From Verrucomicrobiota bacterium (GTDB taxonomy: Bacteria > Verrucomicrobiota > Kiritimatiellia > CAJWTS01): 64,000 bases of DNA. A program made the position numbers and the translations under genes. Numbering within the stretch: the stretch's first letter is position 1; each line of letters begins with the position of its first letter. The notes under the pieces were generated by a model that made no database searches, was not told the origin of the DNA, and worked only from the letters and a program-made list of their open reading frames with translations. The DNA lies in contig JAQBYD010000012.1 of the NCBI GenBank assembly GCA_027623315.1, positions 1 to 64,000 on the forward strand, read 5' to 3'. Shown here piece by piece: positions 8,004 through 63,299 of the stretch.

Positions 8004-9944
8004 ATGGGCCCGAAAATCGTCTGGCTGTTCACCTTTGTCATCGTCTACTGGGCGTACTGCATCTTCTGGGGCATCAAAGGTGCTATTGCATCGAAGACCG
8101 CGTCGGATTATTTCATCGCCGGTCGCCAGATTCCGGTTTGGGTCTTCGTCTTGGCTGCGACGGCGACGTCTTTCTCCGGTTGGACATTCATGGGTCACCC
8201 GGGGTTGCTCTACCGCGATGGGTTTCAGTACGCCTACGCATCATTCTACGCCATCACGATCCCGTTCACCGGGGTCATGTTCCTGAAACGACAGTGGATT
8301 CTGGGCAAGCGTTTCGGCTATGTGACACCGGGTGAGATGCTATCCGACTACTTCCGCTCAGACGTGATGCGGGTCCTCGTGGTCGTCGTGGCCTTGTTCT
8401 TTTCGGTTCCCTACCTGGGAGTCCAGCTACGCGCGTCCGGGTTTCTCTTCAATGTACTGACCGACGGGATGCTCGGGGTCAACGTGGGAATGTGGCTCCT
8501 CTCGGCCGTCGTCCTGGCCTACGTTGCTTTGGGCGGATTGCGCGCCGTAGCGTACGTTGACACGTTGCAATGTCTCTTGCTCGCCGGCGGGATTGTGGCT
8601 ATCGGCTTCATTGTCCTGAATGCGGTCGGTGGCTGGAGTGAACTGAACGAGGGTATCGCTGGTATGATTGCGATCGATACCAAGTTGACTCCTGCCGGGC
8701 ACAGTCACTACGTCGCAATTCCGGGCGTGATTCAGTTCGTTCCAAGCGGGCCGGCTGCCGAGGGCGGAGCCTGGACGGGAATCATGTGCCTGACCTACAT
8801 GTTTGCCTTGATGGGGATTCAGTCGGCACCGGCCTTCTCGATGTGGTCCTTCGCCAACAAGAACCCGAGGCCGTTCGCGCCTCAGCAGGTATGGGCTTCA
8901 TCGTTTGGCATTGGGTTCATTTTGATCATCTTTACGGCCATCCAAGGCATGGGTGCGCACATGATCGGCGCGGATTCGGCAATGCTTAGTGCGGGACACG
9001 CTACCGACAAGCTGGGCCTCGGGATGGACCTGATGGATACCGCGGGCAAGCAGGGCATGATCGTCCCGGCTCTTATCAATCTCATGAGTACGAATGCGCC
9101 ATGGCTTGTTGGACTGCTCAGTGTGTGCGCTCTGGCGGCGATGCAGTCGACCGGCGCCGCCTACATGTCCACGGCCGGCGGCATGCTGACCCGCGATATC
9201 TACAAGCATTTCATGCACAAGGATGCGGATCACCGGCGTCAGAAGCTGTTTGGACGAATGGGCGTAGCCGTCATCGTGATTGCCGCGCTGATCGTCGCAA
9301 CAACCTCGAAAGACGCGCTCGTCCTGCTCGGAGGGCTGGCTGTCGCCTACGGGTTCCAGATGTGGCCCGCTTTGATCGCGATATGTTGGTGCCCGTGGCT
9401 AACGCGGCAGGGCATCATCGTTGGACTGATTGCCGGAATCCTGGCCGTCACCTGTACCGAGACGATCGGGCAGGATTGGTTTGGCATCACGGCCTGGGGC
9501 CGTTGGCCGTGGACGATTCATTCGGCGGGATGGGGCATCATTTTCAACCTGGGTCTGGCCGTCATCGTGTCGGCCGTCACGCAAAACGGTGATGCACGCG
9601 AGCACCGCATGAAGTTCCACAACTACCTGCGTGAACACGCCGGATTGCCGGAATCCAAACGCAAGCTTGTGCCGCTGGCATGGGTCGTCACGATCGTGTG
9701 GTTCGCTTTTGCCGTCGGCCCCGGCGCCGTGATCGGTAACACCATCTTCGGTACGCCTGCCGATTCCACGACGTGGGTCTTCGGCATTCCGTCTATTTGG
9801 GCCTGGCAGATTCTGTGGTGGGCACTGGGCGTAGGCATGATGTGGTTCCTCGCCTATAAGATGGAGATGTCCACGATTCCGCCCAAGGAGGTCCAAGCGC
9901 TCGTCGAGGATATCGGCGACGTGCGCGCCGAATCCGGTTCGTAG
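8004..9944 (+). CDS. Sodium:solute symporter (SSS family)
   Basis: A 646-residue inner-membrane protein with about 13-14 transmembrane helices. The N-terminal part contains DYFIAGRQIPVWVFVLAATA and FSGWTFMGHPGLLY, the Na+-binding region typical of SSS carriers, and the sixth-helix motif ALGGLRAVAYVDTLQ follows. The later MQSTGAAYMSTAGGMLTRDI is the eighth-helix Na2-site signature. Such carriers import proline, pantothenate, sugars or organic acids with sodium; the solute cannot be told. A purine-rich site (GGGAG) lies just before the ATG. It is divergent from birA. Confidence 0.9.
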   Translation: MGPKIVWLFTFVIVYWAYCIFWGIKGAIASKTASDYFIAGRQIPVWVFVLAATATSFSGWTFMGHPGLLYRDGFQYAYASFYAITIPFTGVMFLKRQWILGKRFGYVTPGEMLSDYFRSDVMRVLVVVVALFFSVPYLGVQLRASGFLFNVLTDGMLGVNVGMWLLSAVVLAYVALGGLRAVAYVDTLQCLLLAGGIVAIGFIVLNAVGGWSELNEGIAGMIAIDTKLTPAGHSHYVAIPGVIQFVPSGPAAEGGAWTGIMCLTYMFALMGIQSAPAFSMWSFANKNPRPFAPQQVWASSFGIGFILIIFTAIQGMGAHMIGADSAMLSAGHATDKLGLGMDLMDTAGKQGMIVPALINLMSTNAPWLVGLLSVCALAAMQSTGAAYMSTAGGMLTRDIYKHFMHKDADHRRQKLFGRMGVAVIVIAALIVATTSKDALVLLGGLAVAYGFQMWPALIAICWCPWLTRQGIIVGLIAGILAVTCTETIGQDWFGITAWGRWPWTIHSAGWGIIFNLGLAVIVSAVTQNGDAREHRMKFHNYLREHAGLPESKRKLVPLAWVVTIVWFAFAVGPGAVIGNTIFGTPADSTTWVFGIPSIWAWQILWWALGVGMMWFLAYKMEMSTIPPKEVQALVEDIGDVRAESGS

Positions 9945-24948: not shown

Positions 24949-26148
24949 TTAGGCTCGTTTCTCGAGCACGGCGGCGGTCACGGAGTCCAGCAACTCGGCG
25001 CAGGTGAAGGAGCGGTCCAGGGCGACATCGACGCCGGCCGGCGTGGATGTCTCGGGGCCCGTGCGCTGCTCGTAGGTTTGCAGGAGCACGATAGCTGCGG
25101 GCGGGGTGCATGCCCCCCCCGCGGCGGTGGCGGCGGCGAGCGACAATCCGATCGTGCGCTCACCGAGCAGTACGGCGTCGAACGATGCGCTGGCGATGGT
25201 GTCCGTCACGTTGTCGCGCGCGGCCAACATCTCGATCGTGTGACCCGCCGACGTGAAGTACGCCGAGATTACCTCGCGAAGCTGCTGGTCCTTCTCGACG
25301 AGAAGTATGTTCAGCGACCTGGCCGGTCGAATCTGCGTGGCGGATGCGGGCGCCTCGCCGCTGACTTCGGCCATCGGCAGCCGGATCGAAACCACGCTGC
25401 CAACGCCCGGCTCGCTCGCCATTTGGATCGTACCGTTGCAGTTCTGAACCACAAAGTAGGCCATGGCCAGTCCGATCCCGGATCCATTGCCGGGTTTGGT
25501 CGAGAAGAACGGCTCAAAGCAACGTTCGAGTGCTTCCTCGCTCATCCCCATTCCCGTATCCCTGATTTCGATCGCCACCTCGTCTCCCTCAACGCCGGAC
25601 GTGATAACCACGCGTCCGCCGTGAGGCATCGCCGTAACAGCGTTTACCAGGATATTCGCGATTACTTCCCGCATCTGGGCTTCGCTTGCTTGCACTGCGG
25701 GGAGGTCACGCAGCTCCGTATCCATCTGGATCACAATGCCGTTGCGCTCTTCGTTGGTGCGTCTCAGGGGCTCCAGCAGCTGCAGGACCCCGAGGATCAG
25801 TGGATTGAGATACACGACGCGGACCTCAGAATTCTCCGCCGGTCGATAGAACGCACGAAGGCGGCTCACCATCGATTTTGCCTCGGTGGCGGCGGCGCGA
25901 ATACACTCGAGCATGTGCATGGTGTCCTCGCGGCTCTCTAGAATCTGCTCGTGCGTGAGCATGAAGTCGGCAGCGCCCATGATCGGGGTCAAGGAATTGT
26001 TGAAGTCGTGCACGACGCCACGGGCCATCTGGGCCAGCGCGCGGAGGCGCTCCTGCTGCCTCACAGCGCTATCACGCTGGTGGGACACCCGACGGAGCTC
26101 CTCGAGCTCTCCTATTAACTCTTCGCGCGACTTGTCGGCGTCGCTCAT
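24949..26148 (-). CDS. Soluble histidine kinase with degenerate receiver domain
   Basis: A 399-residue cytoplasmic sensor kinase. Residues about 1-38 are a coiled coil. The phospho-acceptor His47 is in ARGVVHDFNNSLTPI, the ATP lid in MREVIANILVNAVTAMPHGG, IEIRDTGMGMSEEALERCFE and PFFSTKPGNGSGIGLAMAYF. Residues about 275-395 have a receiver fold (LNILLVEKDQQLREVISAYF), but the phospho-aspartate site reads DAVLLGERTIG, so it probably cannot be phosphorylated. No sensor domain or membrane segment. It follows the response regulator gene by 51 bp, and the two form one signalling unit. Confidence 0.88.
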   Translation of the reverse strand: MSDADKSREELIGELEELRRVSHQRDSAVRQQERLRALAQMARGVVHDFNNSLTPIMGAADFMLTHEQILESREDTMHMLECIRAAATEAKSMVSRLRAFYRPAENSEVRVVYLNPLILGVLQLLEPLRRTNEERNGIVIQMDTELRDLPAVQASEAQMREVIANILVNAVTAMPHGGRVVITSGVEGDEVAIEIRDTGMGMSEEALERCFEPFFSTKPGNGSGIGLAMAYFVVQNCNGTIQMASEPGVGSVVSIRLPMAEVSGEAPASATQIRPARSLNILLVEKDQQLREVISAYFTSAGHTIEMLAARDNVTDTIASASFDAVLLGERTIGLSLAAATAAGGACTPPAAIVLLQTYEQRTGPETSTPAGVDVALDRSFTCAELLDSVTAAVLEKRA

Positions 26149-26199: not shown

Positions 26200-26574
26200 C
26201 TACTCCACCTCTTTGGACTCCCGGATCGCCTTCTCAGCAATGCCGAGCAGTTCTTCATTGTCGAATGGCTTCGTCAAATAGGCAGCGGCGCCGAGGGCCA
26301 GGGCTTCGCGGTTGGCTTCGGCGGCGTCGTAGGCGGTGACCATGATCGCAGGCATCTTCGGATACCGGTCTCGCGCCACCCTCAGGACCTCGAGTCCATT
26401 GATCGGTTTCATGCGAATGTCGGAGACCATGAGGTCGAATTCCTGCTTCTCCAGGATCGTGAGGGCCTCCTGTCCGCCACGGGCGGTGGTGACCTCGTCG
26501 CCGCGACTCTTGAAGAGCATATGCAGAACCGTTAGAATATGGATCTCGTCGTCTACGAGCAGAACGCGTGCCAT
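26200..26574 (-). CDS. Single-domain response regulator
   Basis: A 124-residue CheY-like receiver. The acidic pair is in VLLVDDEIHIL, the phospho-acceptor Asp52 in LMVSDIRMKPINGLEVL, the switch residue in AIMVTAYDAA and the lysine in AAYLTKPFDNEELL. There is no output domain. The ATG at 26574 (MARVLLVDDE) is the natural start; an upstream extension is low-complexity proline/glycine sequence caused by a short duplication at about 26688-26722. It is first in the operon with the kinase and is divergent from the giant GYF_2 gene. Confidence 0.93.
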   Translation of the reverse strand: MARVLLVDDEIHILTVLHMLFKSRGDEVTTARGGQEALTILEKQEFDLMVSDIRMKPINGLEVLRVARDRYPKMPAIMVTAYDAAEANREALALGAAAYLTKPFDNEELLGIAEKAIRESKEVE

Positions 26575-26687
26575 TTGGTCACCTACTTGAGCCTGAAGAA
26601 CGGTATTCCCGTGTTTGTGCGTGGTGTCTCGATCCCCCACCGGCGGCGGCGGGGCTTTTCTCTCGAACCATCCGGGCCCTGCCGGAG

Positions 26688-26722
26688 CAGGCCCTCCCGA
26701 GGGGGCAGGCCCTCCCGAGGCG
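26688..26722. repeat. Short tandem duplication upstream of the response regulator
   Basis: The GCAGGCCCTCCCGAGG unit occurs twice in a row with one or two bases between. It lies in the 319-bp divergent intergenic region between the response regulator and the giant GYF_2 gene. Possibly a duplicated operator, or a slippage product. Confidence 0.5.
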
Positions 26723-26893
26723 GAACGGTATACAAGACCCACCGAGAACAGGCGAGGCATATTCCGGTATCGTGCGCGGAGAGCAGCCGCATGAGCGCAT
26801 AAGGATTGCGCCGCAAAGCTCGTTTATTATAGATTCATCAGGCGTGGCTGTGGGCACTTCGTGGCGACGCGGGGTATTCTAGTCTAAGTCATT

Positions 26894-29800
26894 ATGGCCA
26901 AGAGCGCGCAGGACCGTAGTCACTCGAAAGACGCTGATCCGGCCGTATGGTTCGTCCGCCCAAGCGGCGCGAAGGCCTACGGCCCGGTGACCTTTCAACA
27001 GCTGTACACGTGGGCAATCGAGAATCGCATTGCCCACGGGGCCACCGTGTCGAATGACGGCACGGTGTGGGCTCCAGCAGAAAGCGTTTCCGCGCTGCGC
27101 ATGGAATGGATGGTCCACCGCTCCGATGGGAGAGCATTCGGCCCATTCAATCTTCGCGCGACGCCCGCACTCGTACGTGCCGGAATCCTTCCGGGCGATG
27201 CCACGCTGGTCCACGTGCGCACCGGCAAGCGCTTGACCGTCGCCGAGGTGATCGCCGCGGCGAGCGACACGCAGACATCAACACCGCCTTCGGCAGCAGC
27301 GGATGCACCGCCGGTAGTCGACACATCTCTCCAGAAGAACTTGGAGAAAGAGCATCAGCTCCGCCTGGAGAAGGAAGCGGAAGTGACGCGACTGATCGAA
27401 GAATTTGCAGCAGAGGCCGACGCGTCTTCAACGCTGATCGACGAGTTGAAGGGGTACCTCGACCGACAGACGGCCGAGATCGAACGGTTGCAGGATGAGA
27501 TGAAGTCACGCGACGAGAAGCCGGCCGGGCCTGACGCCGAGTCGCTCGAGCGGATCAAGGCCCTTGAAGCGTCGCTTCAAGCAGAAGAGGCGCGCCATGC
27601 GGACATGGAGAAGCAGGCGGCCGGCACGCAGCAGGAACTGTCGAATCGAATCGAAGCACTAAGCGGTGAGAAGGATGACCTCGTTGCGAAGGTCAGTCAG
27701 GTGGAGCGGGCCGCGCAAGCCGCGCGTGAAGAGACCACCGCCGCGAAGCGAACGAAACCGACGAAATCAACAAAGAAGGAGCTTAAGGAATCTCGCAAGG
27801 AGCTTGACGTGCGTGACCGGCGTATCGAGGAGCTGGAGAGCGCGCTCTCGATCCAGCAGGAAAGCCTCCAGAATCGTCTCGATGCCCAGGCCGGGGAGTT
27901 TAAGGGAGAACTCGAGCTGAAACTCAAGCAGGCCGAAGCCGCCACGCAGGCCGTGCGAGAAGAGCTCCGCGCCTTGAAGCGTTCGCAGACCGACGAAGAC
28001 GTGCTGGACGCGCAGCGCGCAGATCTCGAGGAGCGGACGCAGAGCATTCACGAATTGGAACAAACGCTAGCGGCCCAGAAGGAGCAAGCGGCCGCAGCGC
28101 TGGCGGCCCAGAAGGACGCCCTGGAAGCCGAGTTTGAGATTCAGAAACAGGCATTGGAAAGTGGTTTCACGGCCCGGCAGGAGGAATTGCAGGCTCAGCA
28201 TGCTTCCGGCGCAGTGGAGCTTGCGAAGCAGGCCAAGGACTACGAGACCGCGCTATCCCGCGCCGCCAATCAGGCCGCCGCCGCCGAAGAGAAGCTCGAG
28301 AAACTGGGTCGCAAGCATGAAGAGGAGCGCGCTTCGCAAAGCGAGCGATACCAGGACCTGGAGGTCCGCCTGACGCAGACCGAAGCCGCCGCTGCCGCGC
28401 GGGAGGTCAAACTCGAAGAACGGATCCAGAGCCTGTCCGGCGAACGAGACGCCGTGGAGACCGCTCGGCAGCAGCTGCACGCAGAGAAAGAAGAGGTCGA
28501 AGCGATCGTCGTAGCGAGGGAGGGCGAGAAAATTGCCGCCATTCATCTCCAGTTGGAAGGCGCGTTCGCGGAGACGAAGACGATGTTGGCGCAGTTGGAA
28601 GAAGCCCGGCAGCTCCAGGAGAAGACGCAGGCAGAGGTGGAGGCCGTACGGAGCGAGTTGGCTACGTACCGCGAAGTCGCCGATGGAAGACTTGCGACTA
28701 ATGCCGACGAACTGCGCACGGCCACGGAGAAGCGAAATGCCGCGGAGCGTGAGCGGACACGCGTGCTCGACCAGCTCGCGGCGCTCAACGAGGCTTTGGA
28801 GTCATCTCAGAAACGACTACAAGGGCGCGATGAAGATTTGGCACGCAAGAGCAAGGAGTTCGAGCAGCGTTGCCAGAAGTTGGAGTCTGAAAGAGATGTC
28901 CTGCGCGACCGAGGGTTTGTGCTCGACCGGCGCGTTGTGGAGCTCACCAGCAGCGGAGAAAAACTGCAGGAAGCCCTGGCGAGGGCAGACGAGCGCGTCG
29001 CGGAGCTTGAATCGAGCGTCGCCGCTGACGCCTCGAGGATGCGTAAAGACAAGGATCTTCTCGAGGCAGAGCTTAAGACACGCACGGAGCAGAATGCCGA
29101 TCTACGTGCCCAGGTGGATCGAACCCAGGGCGCATTGCAGGCCAGCGGGGACTCCGCCAAGGAAGCGAAGAGTCGTCAGCACGAGGCCCAGGGGACCGTT
29201 CGGCGCCTGCAGGGCGAGTTGAGCGGTCTGGCGCAGGAACTCACGGCGGCCCGGAGCGGCGGCGAGAAGAAGATTGCTGCGCGCGATATGCGAGTCAACG
29301 AATTGGAACGCGAAATTGAGGCTCGCATGGCCGAGCGCGACACGCACGCGTCCGAGGTCGAACGGAAGGAGCGGAAGCTCGACGACACGCAGAAGCAGCT
29401 CGGCCGGGTCCAGGCGGAGCTGGAAAAAGCATTGGGGGAGCTCGCGGATCAAAAGGCGCAAGCCGAGGAGACCCGCGCACAGGCCCTGGAGGACGAGGCC
29501 GTCCGCCAGGAGGAGCGAGAGGCCGCGTCGACACGATTTCGAACACTCGAAGCTGAGCTCAAACACCGCGAAGTGGAACTGGCCGGATTACGCGACAAGG
29601 TGGAGCAGGAGCAGTCTGAGGTCACGACAATCAAGAAGGGGCGTAAGCACAAGGAGGAGAATCTGCGCGGCGACATCAAGCGCCTCAAGCAGGATATTGA
29701 GACCCTGGGCGATCACCTGAACGACAACCGCGAAGCCCTGAGCCAGACGCGCGCGGAGCTGCAGCAGGAGCGAGAGAAAGCGGCGCTGCAGGAGCGTGGC

Positions 29801-32197
29801 CGTAAGCAGGAATTGCATGCCCTTCAAAAGGAGTTGAAGGCCGCGCGTGGCGAACACGCACGCGCCGCCGAAGAGATGGGCACGGTGGAGGTGCAGGCGT
29901 CTCAGAAAGACCAGGACATCGCGGCACTCACCAGCCAGATACAGGCTTTGCAGAGCAATTCACAGCCGAAGGAAGACGTGCGGGTTGAATTGCAGCGCCA
30001 GCGTGAGATCACGGAACGCGAGATCGCCAAGCGCGAAGCTGAATTCGCGGAACAAAGCCAGAGCACGAAGGCAGAGCTGAATCGACACATTGCCGAGCTT
30101 CGTAAGCAGATCGACGCGGCGACGAATGACGCCAGGGCTAAAACGGAAGAACTGGAGAAGGTTCGTAAAGAGTCGGGACAGCGTCCGCCTGCCGGAGATG
30201 CCGACGCAGAGGCGTTGCGTGAGCAGCTGACGGAGGCTAGCTCGGCGCTCGAAAAGGCGAGAGGTGAGGTAGAAGGGATGCGCGCCGAATTGGATGCCGA
30301 GCAGACCCGGCGCCAGGAAGTTGAATCTGCACGGGACCAGGCGGCCGCCGACGTCGCCGCCGCGCGTGAGCAACTCGAAGCCGACGCGAAGCAGCACGCC
30401 GAGGCCGAGGCGGCACTCGAGCGAGCTGCCGGGGAGCTCGAGGATCGACGGACCCGGGAAGCCGAAACCGCCAGCCACGGGATTAAGACCGAGCAGGAGC
30501 TACGCGCCGCGGCCGAGGCGGCGTTGGCGCAGGCCCAGGAAGAGTTTAAGAAGAAGGTCGCTGACGAGATACAGGATCTGCGTGACCAGCTCCAATCTGC
30601 CGAGGAGCGCCGCGCCCGGGCCGAGGAGAGCATGAAGCATATCGAGGAAGCGGGAGATAAGGAGTCTGCCGCGCTTCATGAAGCTGCGGCAACGCTCGAG
30701 GCGGAACGGGGCAAGACCGCAAAGCTCGAGGGAGATCTTAAGCAGGCCCGCACCGATGCGCAGAAGCTACGGGCCGCCGCGGAGGCGCTGAAAGCGAAGA
30801 CCGAGACGGAATTGGCGGCCGAACGAGAGAAAACACGGCAGGCTGTAGATGAGGCCCGGAAGGTCAGTCAGATGGCCGAGAGGCTCAAGAAAACAGAAGC
30901 AGAGCTGGCATCCGAGCGCACGAGGGCTGAAGAGGTCGAAAAAGAACGTAAAAAGGCTTTAGACAATGAGGCACGCGAAGCCCGCGATCGCGAGGCCGCC
31001 GAAGCCAGGCTAATGGCCGAGCAGGAGCAGCGCACGAACGCAGAGTCGGCTTTACGGCGCGCCGAAGATGAGCGACTATCGCAAGTGCTTGCCCTGGAGG
31101 CTAAGATTGCTGAGGGCGAGCGTGACGCTGAACAAGTAACCCAAGAGATTAAGAGACTTGAGACGCAACTTCAAGAGACAGCCCAGAAGGAGCCGTTCGC
31201 TCTCGCAGCGGCCACACGGGCAACCATCGTGACAACACCGAAGACATGGCATGTGCGGCTGGAAGACCGCAGGGTAATCGGCCCCGTGAATTTTATCGAA
31301 CTTCGCGAGTGGGCCGACCAGTGCCGGATCTACCCGGGCCACGAGGTTTCTGACGACCAGACATCATGGCGCAGCGCCGAGAGTGTTCCGGAACTCGGGA
31401 TGTTCTGGAAGATCAAGCTTCCCGACGGGACGGACTACGGCCCTCTCAACCTGTTTGCGGTTCGCGATCTCGTTGACAACGGGTCCATTGCTCCGGACGC
31501 AGAAGTAACCCATGTCGACAAGGGGCTAACCGTGACAGCGGGCGCGATTCCATCGCCGGGAGTCGTTGCCGTGATCACGGGAAGTGAAAACCCTGTTCAA
31601 CGTAACGCCGAGGTCACCTCGCGCCCCGAGTGGCACCTTAAACTTGACGATGACAACATCATGGGGCCGGTTAGTCTCGACGAACTGGCCACGTGGGCTG
31701 CGCAGTGTCGCATTTATCCCGGCCACCAGGTCTCGAAGGACAAGTCGAACTGGACGGCTGTCGAAACCGTGCCCGAGCTAAAGATGGAATGGACCGTTCC
31801 GCTTGTGGATGGTTCGACGTATGGGCCGTTGAACCTCTTTGCTATTCCGGACCTGATTGCCGACGGCGCTGTCGCGAGCGATGCGAAGGTGCATCACAAG
31901 TTGACGAGGCTGGAGATCCCCGCCGAACGAATTCCAGCACGGGAGCTACTCGAGTTCGTGCGCGAACCCGATGTACCGCAACAGGAAGAAGCCTTGGGGG
32001 TCGAGGAACTCGCCGTCCGCTTCGAGACAGCGCTTGAGCGGATCGAGCAACTCGAAAAAGAGATCCATAGTCTGCACGAGACAACATCTGCGCCGCCCGC
32101 CGAAACGGTCGTGCCGCGTCCGCCTCCGCTCTCGATCAAAGCAGAACTGCAAAAACGACTCGATAAAGTCGCCGAGAAGCTCGACGACAGCGAGTAA
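26894..32197 (+). CDS. Giant coiled-coil protein with paired GYF_2-like domains at both ends
   Basis: A 1767-residue protein without signal peptide or membrane helix. Residues about 17-122 hold two consecutive GYF_2-like units (KAYGPVTFQQLYTWAIENRI and RAFGPFNLRATPALVRAGIL). Residues about 140-1430 are almost unbroken, Glu/Lys/Ala/Gln-rich heptad coiled coil. Residues about 1450-1560 and 1579-1690 each repeat the same two-unit module (VIGPVNFIELREWADQCRIY with DYGPLNLFAVRDLVDNGSI; IMGPVSLDELATWAAQCRIY with TYGPLNLFAIPDLIADGAV). A short second coil (about 1715-1740) ends the protein. It is likely a long cytoplasmic rod with peptide-binding heads, by analogy with proline-rich-binding GYF domains. 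Neighbours: divergent response regulator/kinase pair, convergent exbD. Confidence 0.88.
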   Translation: MAKSAQDRSHSKDADPAVWFVRPSGAKAYGPVTFQQLYTWAIENRIAHGATVSNDGTVWAPAESVSALRMEWMVHRSDGRAFGPFNLRATPALVRAGILPGDATLVHVRTGKRLTVAEVIAAASDTQTSTPPSAAADAPPVVDTSLQKNLEKEHQLRLEKEAEVTRLIEEFAAEADASSTLIDELKGYLDRQTAEIERLQDEMKSRDEKPAGPDAESLERIKALEASLQAEEARHADMEKQAAGTQQELSNRIEALSGEKDDLVAKVSQVERAAQAAREETTAAKRTKPTKSTKKELKESRKELDVRDRRIEELESALSIQQESLQNRLDAQAGEFKGELELKLKQAEAATQAVREELRALKRSQTDEDVLDAQRADLEERTQSIHELEQTLAAQKEQAAAALAAQKDALEAEFEIQKQALESGFTARQEELQAQHASGAVELAKQAKDYETALSRAANQAAAAEEKLEKLGRKHEEERASQSERYQDLEVRLTQTEAAAAAREVKLEERIQSLSGERDAVETARQQLHAEKEEVEAIVVAREGEKIAAIHLQLEGAFAETKTMLAQLEEARQLQEKTQAEVEAVRSELATYREVADGRLATNADELRTATEKRNAAERERTRVLDQLAALNEALESSQKRLQGRDEDLARKSKEFEQRCQKLESERDVLRDRGFVLDRRVVELTSSGEKLQEALARADERVAELESSVAADASRMRKDKDLLEAELKTRTEQNADLRAQVDRTQGALQASGDSAKEAKSRQHEAQGTVRRLQGELSGLAQELTAARSGGEKKIAARDMRVNELEREIEARMAERDTHASEVERKERKLDDTQKQLGRVQAELEKALGELADQKAQAEETRAQALEDEAVRQEEREAASTRFRTLEAELKHREVELAGLRDKVEQEQSEVTTIKKGRKHKEENLRGDIKRLKQDIETLGDHLNDNREALSQTRAELQQEREKAALQERGRKQELHALQKELKAARGEHARAAEEMGTVEVQASQKDQDIAALTSQIQALQSNSQPKEDVRVELQRQREITEREIAKREAEFAEQSQSTKAELNRHIAELRKQIDAATNDARAKTEELEKVRKESGQRPPAGDADAEALREQLTEASSALEKARGEVEGMRAELDAEQTRRQEVESARDQAAADVAAAREQLEADAKQHAEAEAALERAAGELEDRRTREAETASHGIKTEQELRAAAEAALAQAQEEFKKKVADEIQDLRDQLQSAEERRARAEESMKHIEEAGDKESAALHEAAATLEAERGKTAKLEGDLKQARTDAQKLRAAAEALKAKTETELAAEREKTRQAVDEARKVSQMAERLKKTEAELASERTRAEEVEKERKKALDNEAREARDREAAEARLMAEQEQRTNAESALRRAEDERLSQVLALEAKIAEGERDAEQVTQEIKRLETQLQETAQKEPFALAAATRATIVTTPKTWHVRLEDRRVIGPVNFIELREWADQCRIYPGHEVSDDQTSWRSAESVPELGMFWKIKLPDGTDYGPLNLFAVRDLVDNGSIAPDAEVTHVDKGLTVTAGAIPSPGVVAVITGSENPVQRNAEVTSRPEWHLKLDDDNIMGPVSLDELATWAAQCRIYPGHQVSKDKSNWTAVETVPELKMEWTVPLVDGSTYGPLNLFAIPDLIADGAVASDAKVHHKLTRLEIPAERIPARELLEFVREPDVPQQEEALGVEELAVRFETALERIEQLEKEIHSLHETTSAPPAETVVPRPPPLSIKAELQKRLDKVAEKLDDSE

Positions 32198-32251: not shown

Positions 32252-32668
32252 TTACTGACGCCTCCGTCGTACGATCGTGATTTGGGTTAGTTTAACGCCG
32301 TGGCAGAGATCCATGACCTTGATCAAGCGGTCGTGCGTGGCGTCGGCATCAACACCGATCGACACGACCTGATTGGTCGAGGCGCGCGCCAGTCGGCTAA
32401 GATTGCTTTCCAACGCGAGCGCACTCACCGGAGCACGATCCATGGTGTATCCGTCGCGATGAACGTTGATATGTATGGGAACCTGACGGTTAACGCCGGC
32501 CGTATCGTCGGGCAAGGAGGCCGGAAGGGCTGCGAGTAGACCGGGAGTTTCGTAGACCACGGCAAAATAGATCAGGAGCAGGAACACAACATCTATAATG
32601 GCTGCCGCCGCCGTGGCGTCATCACCCGTCGTCACTTCAGATCTGTTTCGACGCTGTCTCACTAGCAT
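32252..32668 (-). CDS. ExbD/TolR family biopolymer transport protein
   Basis: A 138-residue protein with a short basic N-terminus, one membrane helix containing the conserved aspartate (AAAIIDVVFLLLIYFAVVY) and a periplasmic domain with the ExbD strands VPIHINVHRDG and VVSIGVDADATHDRLIKVMD. ExbD/TolR works with ExbB/TolQ to couple proton flow to outer-membrane transport or envelope constriction. No exbB, tolQ or tonB is adjacent, so its motor partner must be elsewhere. It converges on the giant coiled-coil gene with a 54-bp gap. Confidence 0.85.
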   Translation of the reverse strand: MLVRQRRNRSEVTTGDDATAAAAIIDVVFLLLIYFAVVYETPGLLAALPASLPDDTAGVNRQVPIHINVHRDGYTMDRAPVSALALESNLSRLARASTNQVVSIGVDADATHDRLIKVMDLCHGVKLTQITIVRRRRQ

Positions 32669-61036: not shown

Positions 61037-61990
61037 TCAGCTCTCGCTGAGGCCCAGCAGGTCCAGGATGCGGTCCAACTCCTCGTTCGAATCGAAATCG
61101 ACCTCAATCGTTCCCCGCCGCTTCTTCCCATTGGCCAGCGTCTGGCTCGGCTTAAGGCGTACCGCCGCTCCGAAGAATCCCTGCAGACGTTCGTGCACAT
61201 AGTTCAGATGGTCCGCCGGCAGGTCGGACTTCTGCGCGCGAGGTTTGCGTTTCGGGCGGCCGGCTTGATCGATCAACTTCTCCAGCGCGCGTACCGACAA
61301 CCCCGCCGTCGCCGCCCGCGTTCCAAGCTCAATCTGTGCCTTCGCGCCGGCAACGCCTGCGAGCGCCTTGGCGTGCCCGGCGCTCAGGGCGCCGGCCAGG
61401 ATCAGCGTACGCACCTCCCTGGGCAAACCGTTGACGCGCATCACGTTGGCCACCGAAGGGCGCGCCTTCCCAACCCGATCGGCAATCTGCTCCTGGGTCA
61501 GGTTGTATTTGTCCGCGAGTAACTGGTAGGCATCCGCCTCTTCCACCACGTTCAGATCTTCGCGTTGAATATTTTCAATCAACGCCAGTTCAAGGGTCTC
61601 GGTGTCTCCGGCTTCGATGATTATCACCGGGACCTCGTTTAAGCCGGCCGCGCGTGCGGCGCGCAGGCGGCGCTCGCCCGCGATCAGTTCCACCCGATCC
61701 GCGTTGCGCCGCACGAGCAGTGGCTGAAGCACGCCCCTCTCGCGGACCGATGCGGCCAACTCTTCGAGCGCGCCTTCCTCGATCTTCTGACGCGGCTGCA
61801 GCGGGTTGAAGGCAATCGCATCGACGCGAATGGTCTGCGCGCCGTCCGAACCGGATCCTGAATCCGCTGCCGTCGTCTCTTTGATCAATGCCCCGAGCCC
61901 GCGCCCGAGCCCGCGCCCAAGCCCGCGCTTGCGGGGCGCGCGTTCAACATCCTTATCCGAGCGTGAAAGTTGATCGTGTGTTTTGGTCAC
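61037..61990 (-). CDS. parB: ParB/Spo0J family chromosome partitioning protein
   Basis: A 317-residue partition protein. The basic N-terminus carries a duplicated GRGLGRGLGRGLGALI. The CTPase/parS-loading motifs VERGVLQPLLV-like (RERGVLQPLLVRR), IAGERRLRAARAAGLNEVPV and ENIQREDLNVVEEADAYQLL are present, followed by the helix-turn-helix (LTQEQIADRVGKARPSVANV) and a C-terminal dimer domain. GTG start directly after the bactofilin stop. No parA or parS site is in the window. Confidence 0.93.
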   Translation of the reverse strand: MTKTHDQLSRSDKDVERAPRKRGLGRGLGRGLGALIKETTAADSGSGSDGAQTIRVDAIAFNPLQPRQKIEEGALEELAASVRERGVLQPLLVRRNADRVELIAGERRLRAARAAGLNEVPVIIIEAGDTETLELALIENIQREDLNVVEEADAYQLLADKYNLTQEQIADRVGKARPSVANVMRVNGLPREVRTLILAGALSAGHAKALAGVAGAKAQIELGTRAATAGLSVRALEKLIDQAGRPKRKPRAQKSDLPADHLNYVHERLQGFFGAAVRLKPSQTLANGKKRRGTIEVDFDSNEELDRILDLLGLSES

Positions 61991-62722
61991 TTAATTCTCT
62001 TTCTCCTGGTCCGCAACGATTCCGTGGATCTGAATTCTCGCCTTAAGCCCGGCGCCGTCCTCGACCTCGAAGTGGCTGGCCTTCAGTGTCCCGCGCAAAA
62101 GTCCGCCGGCGAGCACCTTGACCAGGCCATCGGCCTGCAACTTGGCGTTCAACTCGCCTCCGACTTCAATATTTCGAAAGGTTAGCTTGCGCGTCGAGGC
62201 AAATCTTCCACCGGCGCAGATCACGAGGTCACGTGCCTCAATGGTGCTGATATCAAGCTTGGCCGCGGGATGTAGCTCCAATCGCCCGCAGGCGTAGATT
62301 TTGCCGCCCTCGATCGTGCCCTCAACGATAATGTCCCGGGCAAACAGGTCACCCCCCTTGATGATCCCGCCCTCACGAATGTGAATCGCACCAATTGTCT
62401 TCAGATCCTCGCGCCACTCCTTGGTGATCGTGTGATCTTTAGCCTCCAGCGTCCGGTGGCATTTCGGACACCCGGTATTGGTCACCCGTCCCGCGACGGT
62501 AAAATCGTATTCACAACCGTAGCAGCGGATGCGATGCTTGGTGGGGAGTGCGGTGCGCGCAGCTCCCGGCAAACCGTCGGACTTCGCACGAGGCTTCTTG
62601 GCGGGGTCTTGCTTTCGCGACAGCGGCGGGTCGCCCCTGGCCTCGCGATCACGGACAGCCTTAAGCGCCGTGAACCCGTCAACGACGCCTGATCTCGATA
62701 TTGTTTTGCGATTCTTGGCCAC
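61991..62722 (-). CDS. Bactofilin with N-terminal zinc ribbon
   Basis: A 243-residue protein. The basic N-terminus (1-60) is followed by a zinc ribbon, Cys67/70 (CYGC) and Cys85/88 (CPKC). Residues about 108-225 form a bactofilin beta-helix with short repeats such as IREGGIIKGGDLFARDIIVE, GRLELHPAAKLDISTI and GGELNAKLQADGLVKVLAGG. Bactofilins polymerise into cytoskeletal filaments that can position ParABS components. Its stop codon is adjacent to the parB GTG, so the two are tightly co-expressed. The zinc ribbon is an uncommon addition. Confidence 0.85.
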   Translation of the reverse strand: MAKNRKTISRSGVVDGFTALKAVRDREARGDPPLSRKQDPAKKPRAKSDGLPGAARTALPTKHRIRCYGCEYDFTVAGRVTNTGCPKCHRTLEAKDHTITKEWREDLKTIGAIHIREGGIIKGGDLFARDIIVEGTIEGGKIYACGRLELHPAAKLDISTIEARDLVICAGGRFASTRKLTFRNIEVGGELNAKLQADGLVKVLAGGLLRGTLKASHFEVEDGAGLKARIQIHGIVADQEKEN

Positions 62723-62840: not shown

Positions 62841-63299
62841 CTACTTGCGGCCGAGCCCGAACCCCTTCTTCTGCTCGTCCGATGCGTCAGCGTCTTCGCC
62901 CACGCCGGTGGCCTTGGGATCGACACCCGCTTTTGCTTGTGCGCCGGGCGTGGTGCCGGAGGGGTTCACCTCGGACTTGCCGACAAAGGTCACGCCGTCG
63001 ACTACCGTCAAGCGCTTGGCCTTGATGTCGCCATTGACGCGCGCGCTCGACTTCAGCTCGATCTTGTCTTTGGCGACGATGTTTCCGCTGACCTGCCCGA
63101 GCACCGAGACACCGTTCACGGTAAGATTCCCATGGACGGTCGCCTTCTCCCCGATAATCGCGTCGCCGGTACAGTTGAGGTCCCCGTTAAGCTTACCGTT
63201 GATTTGGATGCTGTCGTTGCATTTGATGGTTCCAGTCAATTCGACGTCCTCGCCGATGATCGTGGAAAGATTACCCTGTTTGTTGTCGCCGTCAGCCAT
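62841..63299 (-). CDS. Bactofilin (polymer-forming cytoskeletal protein)
   Basis: A 152-residue standard bactofilin: TIIGEDVELTGTIKCNDSIQ, INGKLNGDLNCTGDAIIGEK, VSGNIVAKDKIELKSSARVN and GDIKAKRLTVVDGVTFVGK form the right-handed beta-helix core (about 12-110), with a disordered Ala/Gly/Asp tail. It opens the bactofilin-bactofilin-parB run and assembles without nucleotide. Confidence 0.92.
   Translation of the reverse strand: MADGDNKQGNLSTIIGEDVELTGTIKCNDSIQINGKLNGDLNCTGDAIIGEKATVHGNLTVNGVSVLGQVSGNIVAKDKIELKSSARVNGDIKAKRLTVVDGVTFVGKSEVNPSGTTPGAQAKAGVDPKATGVGEDADASDEQKKGFGLGRK

Follow-up and report, generated by a model that had tools for sequence, protein, structure and literature searches.

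A Giant Two-Headed Tandem-GYF Coiled-Coil Protein of Kiritimatiellia as a Possible Cross-Linker in a Membrane-Tethered Scaffold

AglZ, crescentin, and FilP are large bacterial coiled-coil scaffolds, and the core of each is a long cytoplasmic heptad coil. The GYF domain has the published signature GPF-x4-[MVI]-x2-W-x3-GYF, and the GYF ligand already known is PPG followed by a hydrophobic residue (PMC12249416). A bacterial GYF domain is found in GltJ (AgmX) from the gliding machinery of Myxococcus xanthus, a membrane-associated machine. Planctomycete conflict-system proteins also contain paired GYF domains; their fusion partners there are trypsin or membrane regions, the proteins are coupled to GTPase systems, and no rods are described among them (PMC7159879).

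We have analyzed a stretch of 64,000 nucleotides from a member of the Kiritimatiellia (contig JAQBYD010000012.1; the window) that encodes a 1767-residue protein with tandem-GYF modules at both ends of a long coil. This protein and its relatives, the rods, have the GYF fold of the eukaryotic proteins CD2BP2, Smy2, and GIGYF1/2 by structure comparison, and the first unit of their modules largely keeps the initial half of the signature motif (GPx-x4-hydrophobic-x2-W). They differ from the eukaryotic proteins in having G/C-R-I/V in place of GYF, in the fusion of the units into pairs, in lengths of up to 2752 residues, and in a candidate ligand of the form PPK/PPQ-x-hydrophobic rather than PPG-hydrophobic. 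The GYF structure of GltJ (7z3c) is the best solved bacterial match to the rod module, but GltJ is a predicted membrane protein of 674 residues with neither a giant rod nor a two-ended layout. The Planctomycete proteins likewise carry a GYF pair in a PVC-group bacterium, fused to other partners as described above. The rods have the long heptad coil of AglZ, crescentin, and FilP but no end domain in common with them; they end in GYF modules of the peptide-binding type, and their candidate partners display a common short motif. With respect to bactofilin scaffolds and their adaptors, one rod lineage encodes two bactofilins directly 3' of the rod; however, the rod itself is no bactofilin, and the linkage is absent at most loci, including that of the window. 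The initial annotation of the window, made from the sequence, could name no described system with this layout, and searches for papers on DUF4339, the GltJ GYF domain, and a Kiritimatiellota cytoskeleton found none on GYF rods of this kind. The features of the window protein are listed below.

26894..32197, + strand: giant rod gene of the two-headed type (type B), 1767 aa, the subject of this work; open frame, Pfam GYF_2
26948..27244, + strand: N-terminal tandem-GYF module, residues 19-117; module HMM E 1.9e-33, GYF_2 23.3 bits
27311..31237, + strand: coiled-coil rod, about residues 140-1448; heptad z scores, 3.5-residue period
31244..31540, + strand: first C-terminal tandem-GYF module, residues 1451-1549; module HMM E 1e-36, GYF_2 27.4 bits
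31628..31924, + strand: second C-terminal tandem-GYF module, residues 1579-1677; module HMM E 4e-39, GYF_2 29.3 bits
32120..32161, + strand: C-terminal tail PPPLSIKAELQKRL, residues 1743-1756; alignment of tails

The whole protein was found to belong to Pfam GYF_2 (PF14237), with a score of 75.9 bits over three matched stretches against a curated cut-off of 25.8 bits. In a GYF_2 search of its own genome, the two C-terminal modules scored above the cut-off through their first units, and the N-terminal module fell slightly below it at 23.3 bits. A profile of the two-unit module detected exactly three copies of approximately 100 residues each (E 1e-33 to 1e-39), and thus the six units are correctly described, as they had been at the outset, as three pairs, one N-terminal and two C-terminal. 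The mean hydropathy of every 19-residue segment of the protein was 1.46 or less, so that the protein has no membrane helix or signal peptide, in agreement with the earlier statement that none was visible.

The fold of the end modules was addressed with AlphaFold2 and Foldseek. Residues 1573-1767, modeled with 50 relatives, gave a mean pLDDT of 90.6, with values of 94-98 over most of the second C-terminal module. When this model was compared with the PDB, GYF domains were found at ranks 2-4 and 6-12 with probabilities of 0.77-0.97 and modest E-values of about 0.07-0.2; these included Myxococcus GltJ, GIGYF2, Smy2 with a proline-rich peptide, and an Arabidopsis GYF domain. A sequence-profile search of the PDB placed the GltJ GYF domain first and GIGYF2 second, with insignificant E-values. 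The predicted structure of the end modules is therefore that of the GYF superfamily. In the first unit of each module the pattern GPx-x4-L-x2-W is largely kept (G in 85 of 85 modules, P in 82, and W in 81), and the GYF of the second half of the signature is replaced by GRI or CRI. The second unit keeps GP but lacks the groove Trp, a Leu occupying this position in 67 of the 85 modules. Since the groove Trp is kept only in the first unit, each module probably offers one canonical ligand groove. The heads first annotated as GYF_2-like stand with respect to their fold, with the correction that the canonical groove residue is confined to one unit of each pair.

The segment between the first and second modules is 1333 residues long, close to the 1300 residues of coiled coil estimated initially. 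Its hydrophobic residues repeat at lag 7 (z = 8.2) and lag 14 (z = 8.1) relative to shuffled sequences, and there are 9 Pro in 1314 residues. With a long heptad coil and no membrane helix, the protein has the makings of a bacterial coiled-coil scaffold, and as a stiff rod the coil, at about 0.15 nm for each of its 1333 residues, would extend up to approximately 200 nm. Membership in the SMC family was considered and rejected, as the NCBIfam SMC matches lie only within the coil and reach 55 bits against a cut-off of 567. Pfam scans found no ATPase domain in the protein and no DNA-binding domain in the rod.

The GYF module is widespread in Kiritimatiellia, with matches in 191 of 288 genomes and 90 of 113 genera. 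A back-translated scan using the type A alignment gave 37 related loci, nearly all from metagenome-assembled genomes of Kiritimatiellae, Lentisphaerae, Verrucomicrobia, or the PVC group. Sampling across the phylum gave matches in only 10 genomes outside Kiritimatiellia, and the out-of-class matches, among those listed with coordinates, are short frames of 180-357 residues. Within this sample, the giant rods look class-specific to Kiritimatiellia.

A set of 63 distinct proteins, each of at least 600 residues, was classified by architecture. Type A (18 proteins of 740 to 2752 residues) begins with a head, continues as a rod, and ends in a conserved FRPxPWM(K/R)LK tail. Type B, with heads at both ends, comprises 11 proteins from 11 genomes in 8 families, the window protein among them, and its rods measure 678-2280 residues between the end modules. 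Type C (6 proteins, one truncated) has an N-terminal head, a rod, a membrane helix, and an OmpA-like domain, which exceeds the Pfam cut-off in L104 and was assigned by sequence inspection in the remaining members. Type C proteins of 793-2006 residues are encoded at L100:7694-13714, L104:5198-9412, L106:7633-12168, L042:7003-9384, and L043:329-3061. Of the remaining proteins, six have heads at the C-terminus and an N-terminal end that is cut or missing; the other 22 begin with a head and have another or a truncated C-terminal end. Types A and B occur together in several genomes and all three types in G059, G079, and G118; the genome of the window encodes a type A rod (L032, 749 residues by the longest frame) in addition to the type B rod. 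The layout noted in the window is therefore real and recurs in 10 other genomes rather than being confined to a single one, but it is one of at least three architectures in a class-wide family.

Type A rod genes are followed immediately 3' by the gene for c1, a bitopic membrane protein with no clear Pfam match, and next comes a convergent gene for a LysM lipoprotein with a coil (c2). In the c1 proteins a cytoplasmic PP motif is combined with a coil in the periplasm and with a conserved WRLPLP-like sequence at the C-terminus; the member in the genome of the window lies at L032:6333-7331, and relatives were found at L022, L026, L050-L053, L058, L105, L114, and L119. The motif, PP(K/R/Q)x(L/V/I) with a charged or small residue after it, is common to the N-termini of c1 and of c5, a second group of membrane proteins, and to the C-termini of type B rods. 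It is represented by the c1 peptide MARPPKILKREIRG and by the type B tail peptide IPAPPQSVRSQLAQRL. The tail of the window protein, PPPLSIKAELQKRL, is a degenerate version and does not fit the strict pattern.

Among all genes at the rod loci, one of three strict patterns was found in 12 of 15 c1 proteins, 5 of 10 c5 proteins, 7 of 20 type B tails, and 7 of 709 others, in counts that are partly post hoc, as the motif was first noticed in part of these data, and that are not independent, as family members share ancestry. For c5 the strict motif is carried by 5-7 of 10 proteins, compared with about 1% of other genes. Of 16 genes located immediately 3' of a PWM-tailed rod, 14 encode the motif in their first 40 residues, compared with 14 of 670 other genes (Fisher p = 9e-20, subject to the same two reservations). 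L057 becomes the fifteenth of the 16 when its start is moved upstream, and the sixteenth is an unrelated gene. The 14 background genes include at least one unclustered c1 (L052) and three members of a family with the N-terminus LPPKLDLRxSGIL. In contigs fetched after the motif had been noticed, it was found again in L114, L117, L119, and L125 and was absent in L129. A scan of the genome of the window for PPK-hydrophobic-hydrophobic gave four matches, of which the c1 gene is the only N-terminal coding match and another is the linker of a sigma-54 activator. The LPPKLDLRxSGIL proteins (395-490 residues, no Pfam match) are encoded near type B loci at L087:3509-4786, L034:12677-13864, and L089:13618-15090, and a search of the genome of the window for this family gave no match. 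The window gene at 8004-9944, with PPKEV at its C-terminal end, was considered as a client of the motif and set aside, as it encodes a sodium symporter and the match is probably due to chance.

GYF domains bind PPG-hydrophobic peptides (PMC12249416), which makes a PP-x-hydrophobic sequence plausible as a ligand, and the recurrence of one motif at a terminus in three unrelated protein groups is the behavior that a short linear ligand motif would show. Judged by sequence, PP(K/Q)x(L/V/I) is thus a plausible candidate GYF ligand. It is alternatively conceivable that the heads bind an unrelated, class-specific ligand, that the neighboring proteins have the PP motif in common as a signal or a helix cap, and that the rod is a scaffold of another sort. 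The PPK-x-hydrophobic motif does lack the glycine of the PPG ligand, and the single-chain AlphaFold2 models are without docking: the type A tail is not placed on its own head and has pLDDT values mostly below 50, and the tail of the window protein is a confident helix, which does not in itself indicate docking. We regard this alternative as unlikely, since three non-homologous groups that are found beside GYF rods, or are themselves GYF rods, carry the motif terminally, and characterized GYF domains bind proline motifs.

Our preferred reading, to which we give moderate confidence, is that the window protein cross-links partners in the cytoplasm, as a rod within a membrane-tethered scaffold found across the class. 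The tandem GYF end modules would act as peptide-binding heads that grip the PP-x-hydrophobic motif on partner proteins, namely on the cytoplasmic N-termini of the bitopic inner-membrane proteins that neighbor type A rods and on the tails at the C-terminus of the type B rods themselves. With its two heads and, often, a tail that has the motif, a type B rod would gather partners displaying the motif into bundles or form bridges between them. A type A rod would link the membrane protein to whichever partner binds its PWM tail, and type C rods would be self-anchored through the membrane helix to a periplasmic OmpA domain of the peptidoglycan-binding type. The analysis itself establishes the fold, the architectures, their distribution, the adjacency of the genes, and the recurrence of the motif; from these we infer the oligomeric state and location of the rods, their binding to the motif, their contact with bactofilin, and a biological role in cell shape, envelope organization, or positioning. 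If the pairing of motif and head is real, the class would have a bacterial scaffold based on the recognition of proline motifs by GYF domains, hitherto studied mainly in eukaryotes, with coiled-coil rods of roughly 100-400 nm joined to the envelope. The c1 and c5 proteins and the PWM tail would then be new parts in a mostly uncultured class with little-studied cell biology.

A bactofilin gene follows the rod directly, at a distance of 19-85 nt, in seven loci, and in one sublineage the rod is preceded by the bitopic c5 protein and followed by two bactofilins. This linkage is limited to one lineage and one other locus, and most rod loci have no bactofilin nearby. In L031 (8298-10875), two c5-related proteins with long degenerate repeats of the VEKPVEVVVE type are encoded upstream of the rod gene. 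The window has three consecutive genes of interest in this respect.

62841..63299, - strand: bactofilin 1; Pfam Bactofilin 90.6 bits, layout matching the rod-following bactofilins of the sublineage
61991..62722, - strand: bactofilin 2; Pfam Bactofilin 51.5 bits, layout of the zinc-ribbon bactofilin that follows rods elsewhere
61037..61990, - strand: ParB, directly after the bactofilin pair; Pfam ParB_N, HTH_ParB, ParB_C

With respect to gene order, the link to bactofilin is firm in one lineage, where the rod is in a probable operon with two bactofilins and the scaffold therefore probably joins the bactofilin cytoskeleton; in the genome of the window it is no more than suggestive. The rods could instead be a bactofilin/ParB-linked scaffold for nucleoid positioning or pole organization, comparable to the scaffolding of ParABC by Myxococcus bactofilins, rather than an envelope cross-linker. 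The two bactofilins after the rod in one lineage and the contiguity of both bactofilins with ParB in the window would fit such a function. However, the window rod is about 30 kb from this cluster, bactofilin is absent near most rod loci, Pfam detects no DNA-binding domain in the rod, and the genes that recur next to type A rods encode a LysM lipoprotein and a membrane protein of the bitopic kind, and we consider a nucleoid or polar scaffold rather improbable. In its widest form, our preferred reading would be of an undescribed Kiritimatiellia cytoskeleton in which type A, B, and C rods assemble through one short linear motif, as a bacterial equivalent of modular adaptor networks, and tether the membrane, the wall, and, in one lineage, bactofilin polymers; this is offered tentatively.

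The genes that flank the rod gene in the window are as follows.

24949..26148, - strand: histidine kinase, divergent to the rod gene; Pfam HisKA/HATPase_c
26200..26760, - strand: response regulator, divergent to the rod gene; Pfam Response_reg
32252..32668, - strand: ExbD/TolR-like protein, convergent to the rod gene; Pfam ExbD 57.8 bits

The convergent ExbD gene, together with GltJ as the top bacterial structural match, could place the rods in a machine for gliding, or in one resembling focal adhesions, akin to the Myxococcus Glt/Agl system, with ExbD in a TolQR-like motor. This is very unlikely, as no ExbB/TolQ-like partner was recognized beside ExbD, ExbD was not seen at the other type B loci whose neighborhoods were compared, the GYF likeness is at the level of the domain only, and gltI and gltJ are reported from Myxococcales only (PMC3169522). 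A strict molecular ruler that fixes the distance between two structures would suit two heads held far apart on a long, probably stiff coil, but it is highly improbable because rod length is free to vary threefold, from 678 to 2280 residues in type B, with type A totals of 740 to 2752. Of the functions proposed in the initial annotation (cross-linker, spacer, or ruler), the cytoplasmic rod and the logic of a cross-linker are consequently kept, and a universal ruler is not.

At other type B loci, MazG and ThiC genes are convergent and Memo or aconitase genes are divergent; these neighbors represent conserved synteny, and no functional link between them and the rods was seen. Many type A rods have upstream of them a gene of approximately 1200 residues that was taken from its length to be a possible SMC; Pfam identified its product as the alpha subunit of DNA polymerase III. 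Scans for sigma-70 promoters and terminators gave nothing above chance. The rod gene of the sister genome L021 also has genes for a kinase and a gamma-glutamyltranspeptidase beside it (common clusters c0 and c35). Both genomes of the family have a histidine kinase gene in divergent orientation to the type B rod gene (in the window and at L021:12768-13940), and this kinase may regulate the rod gene.
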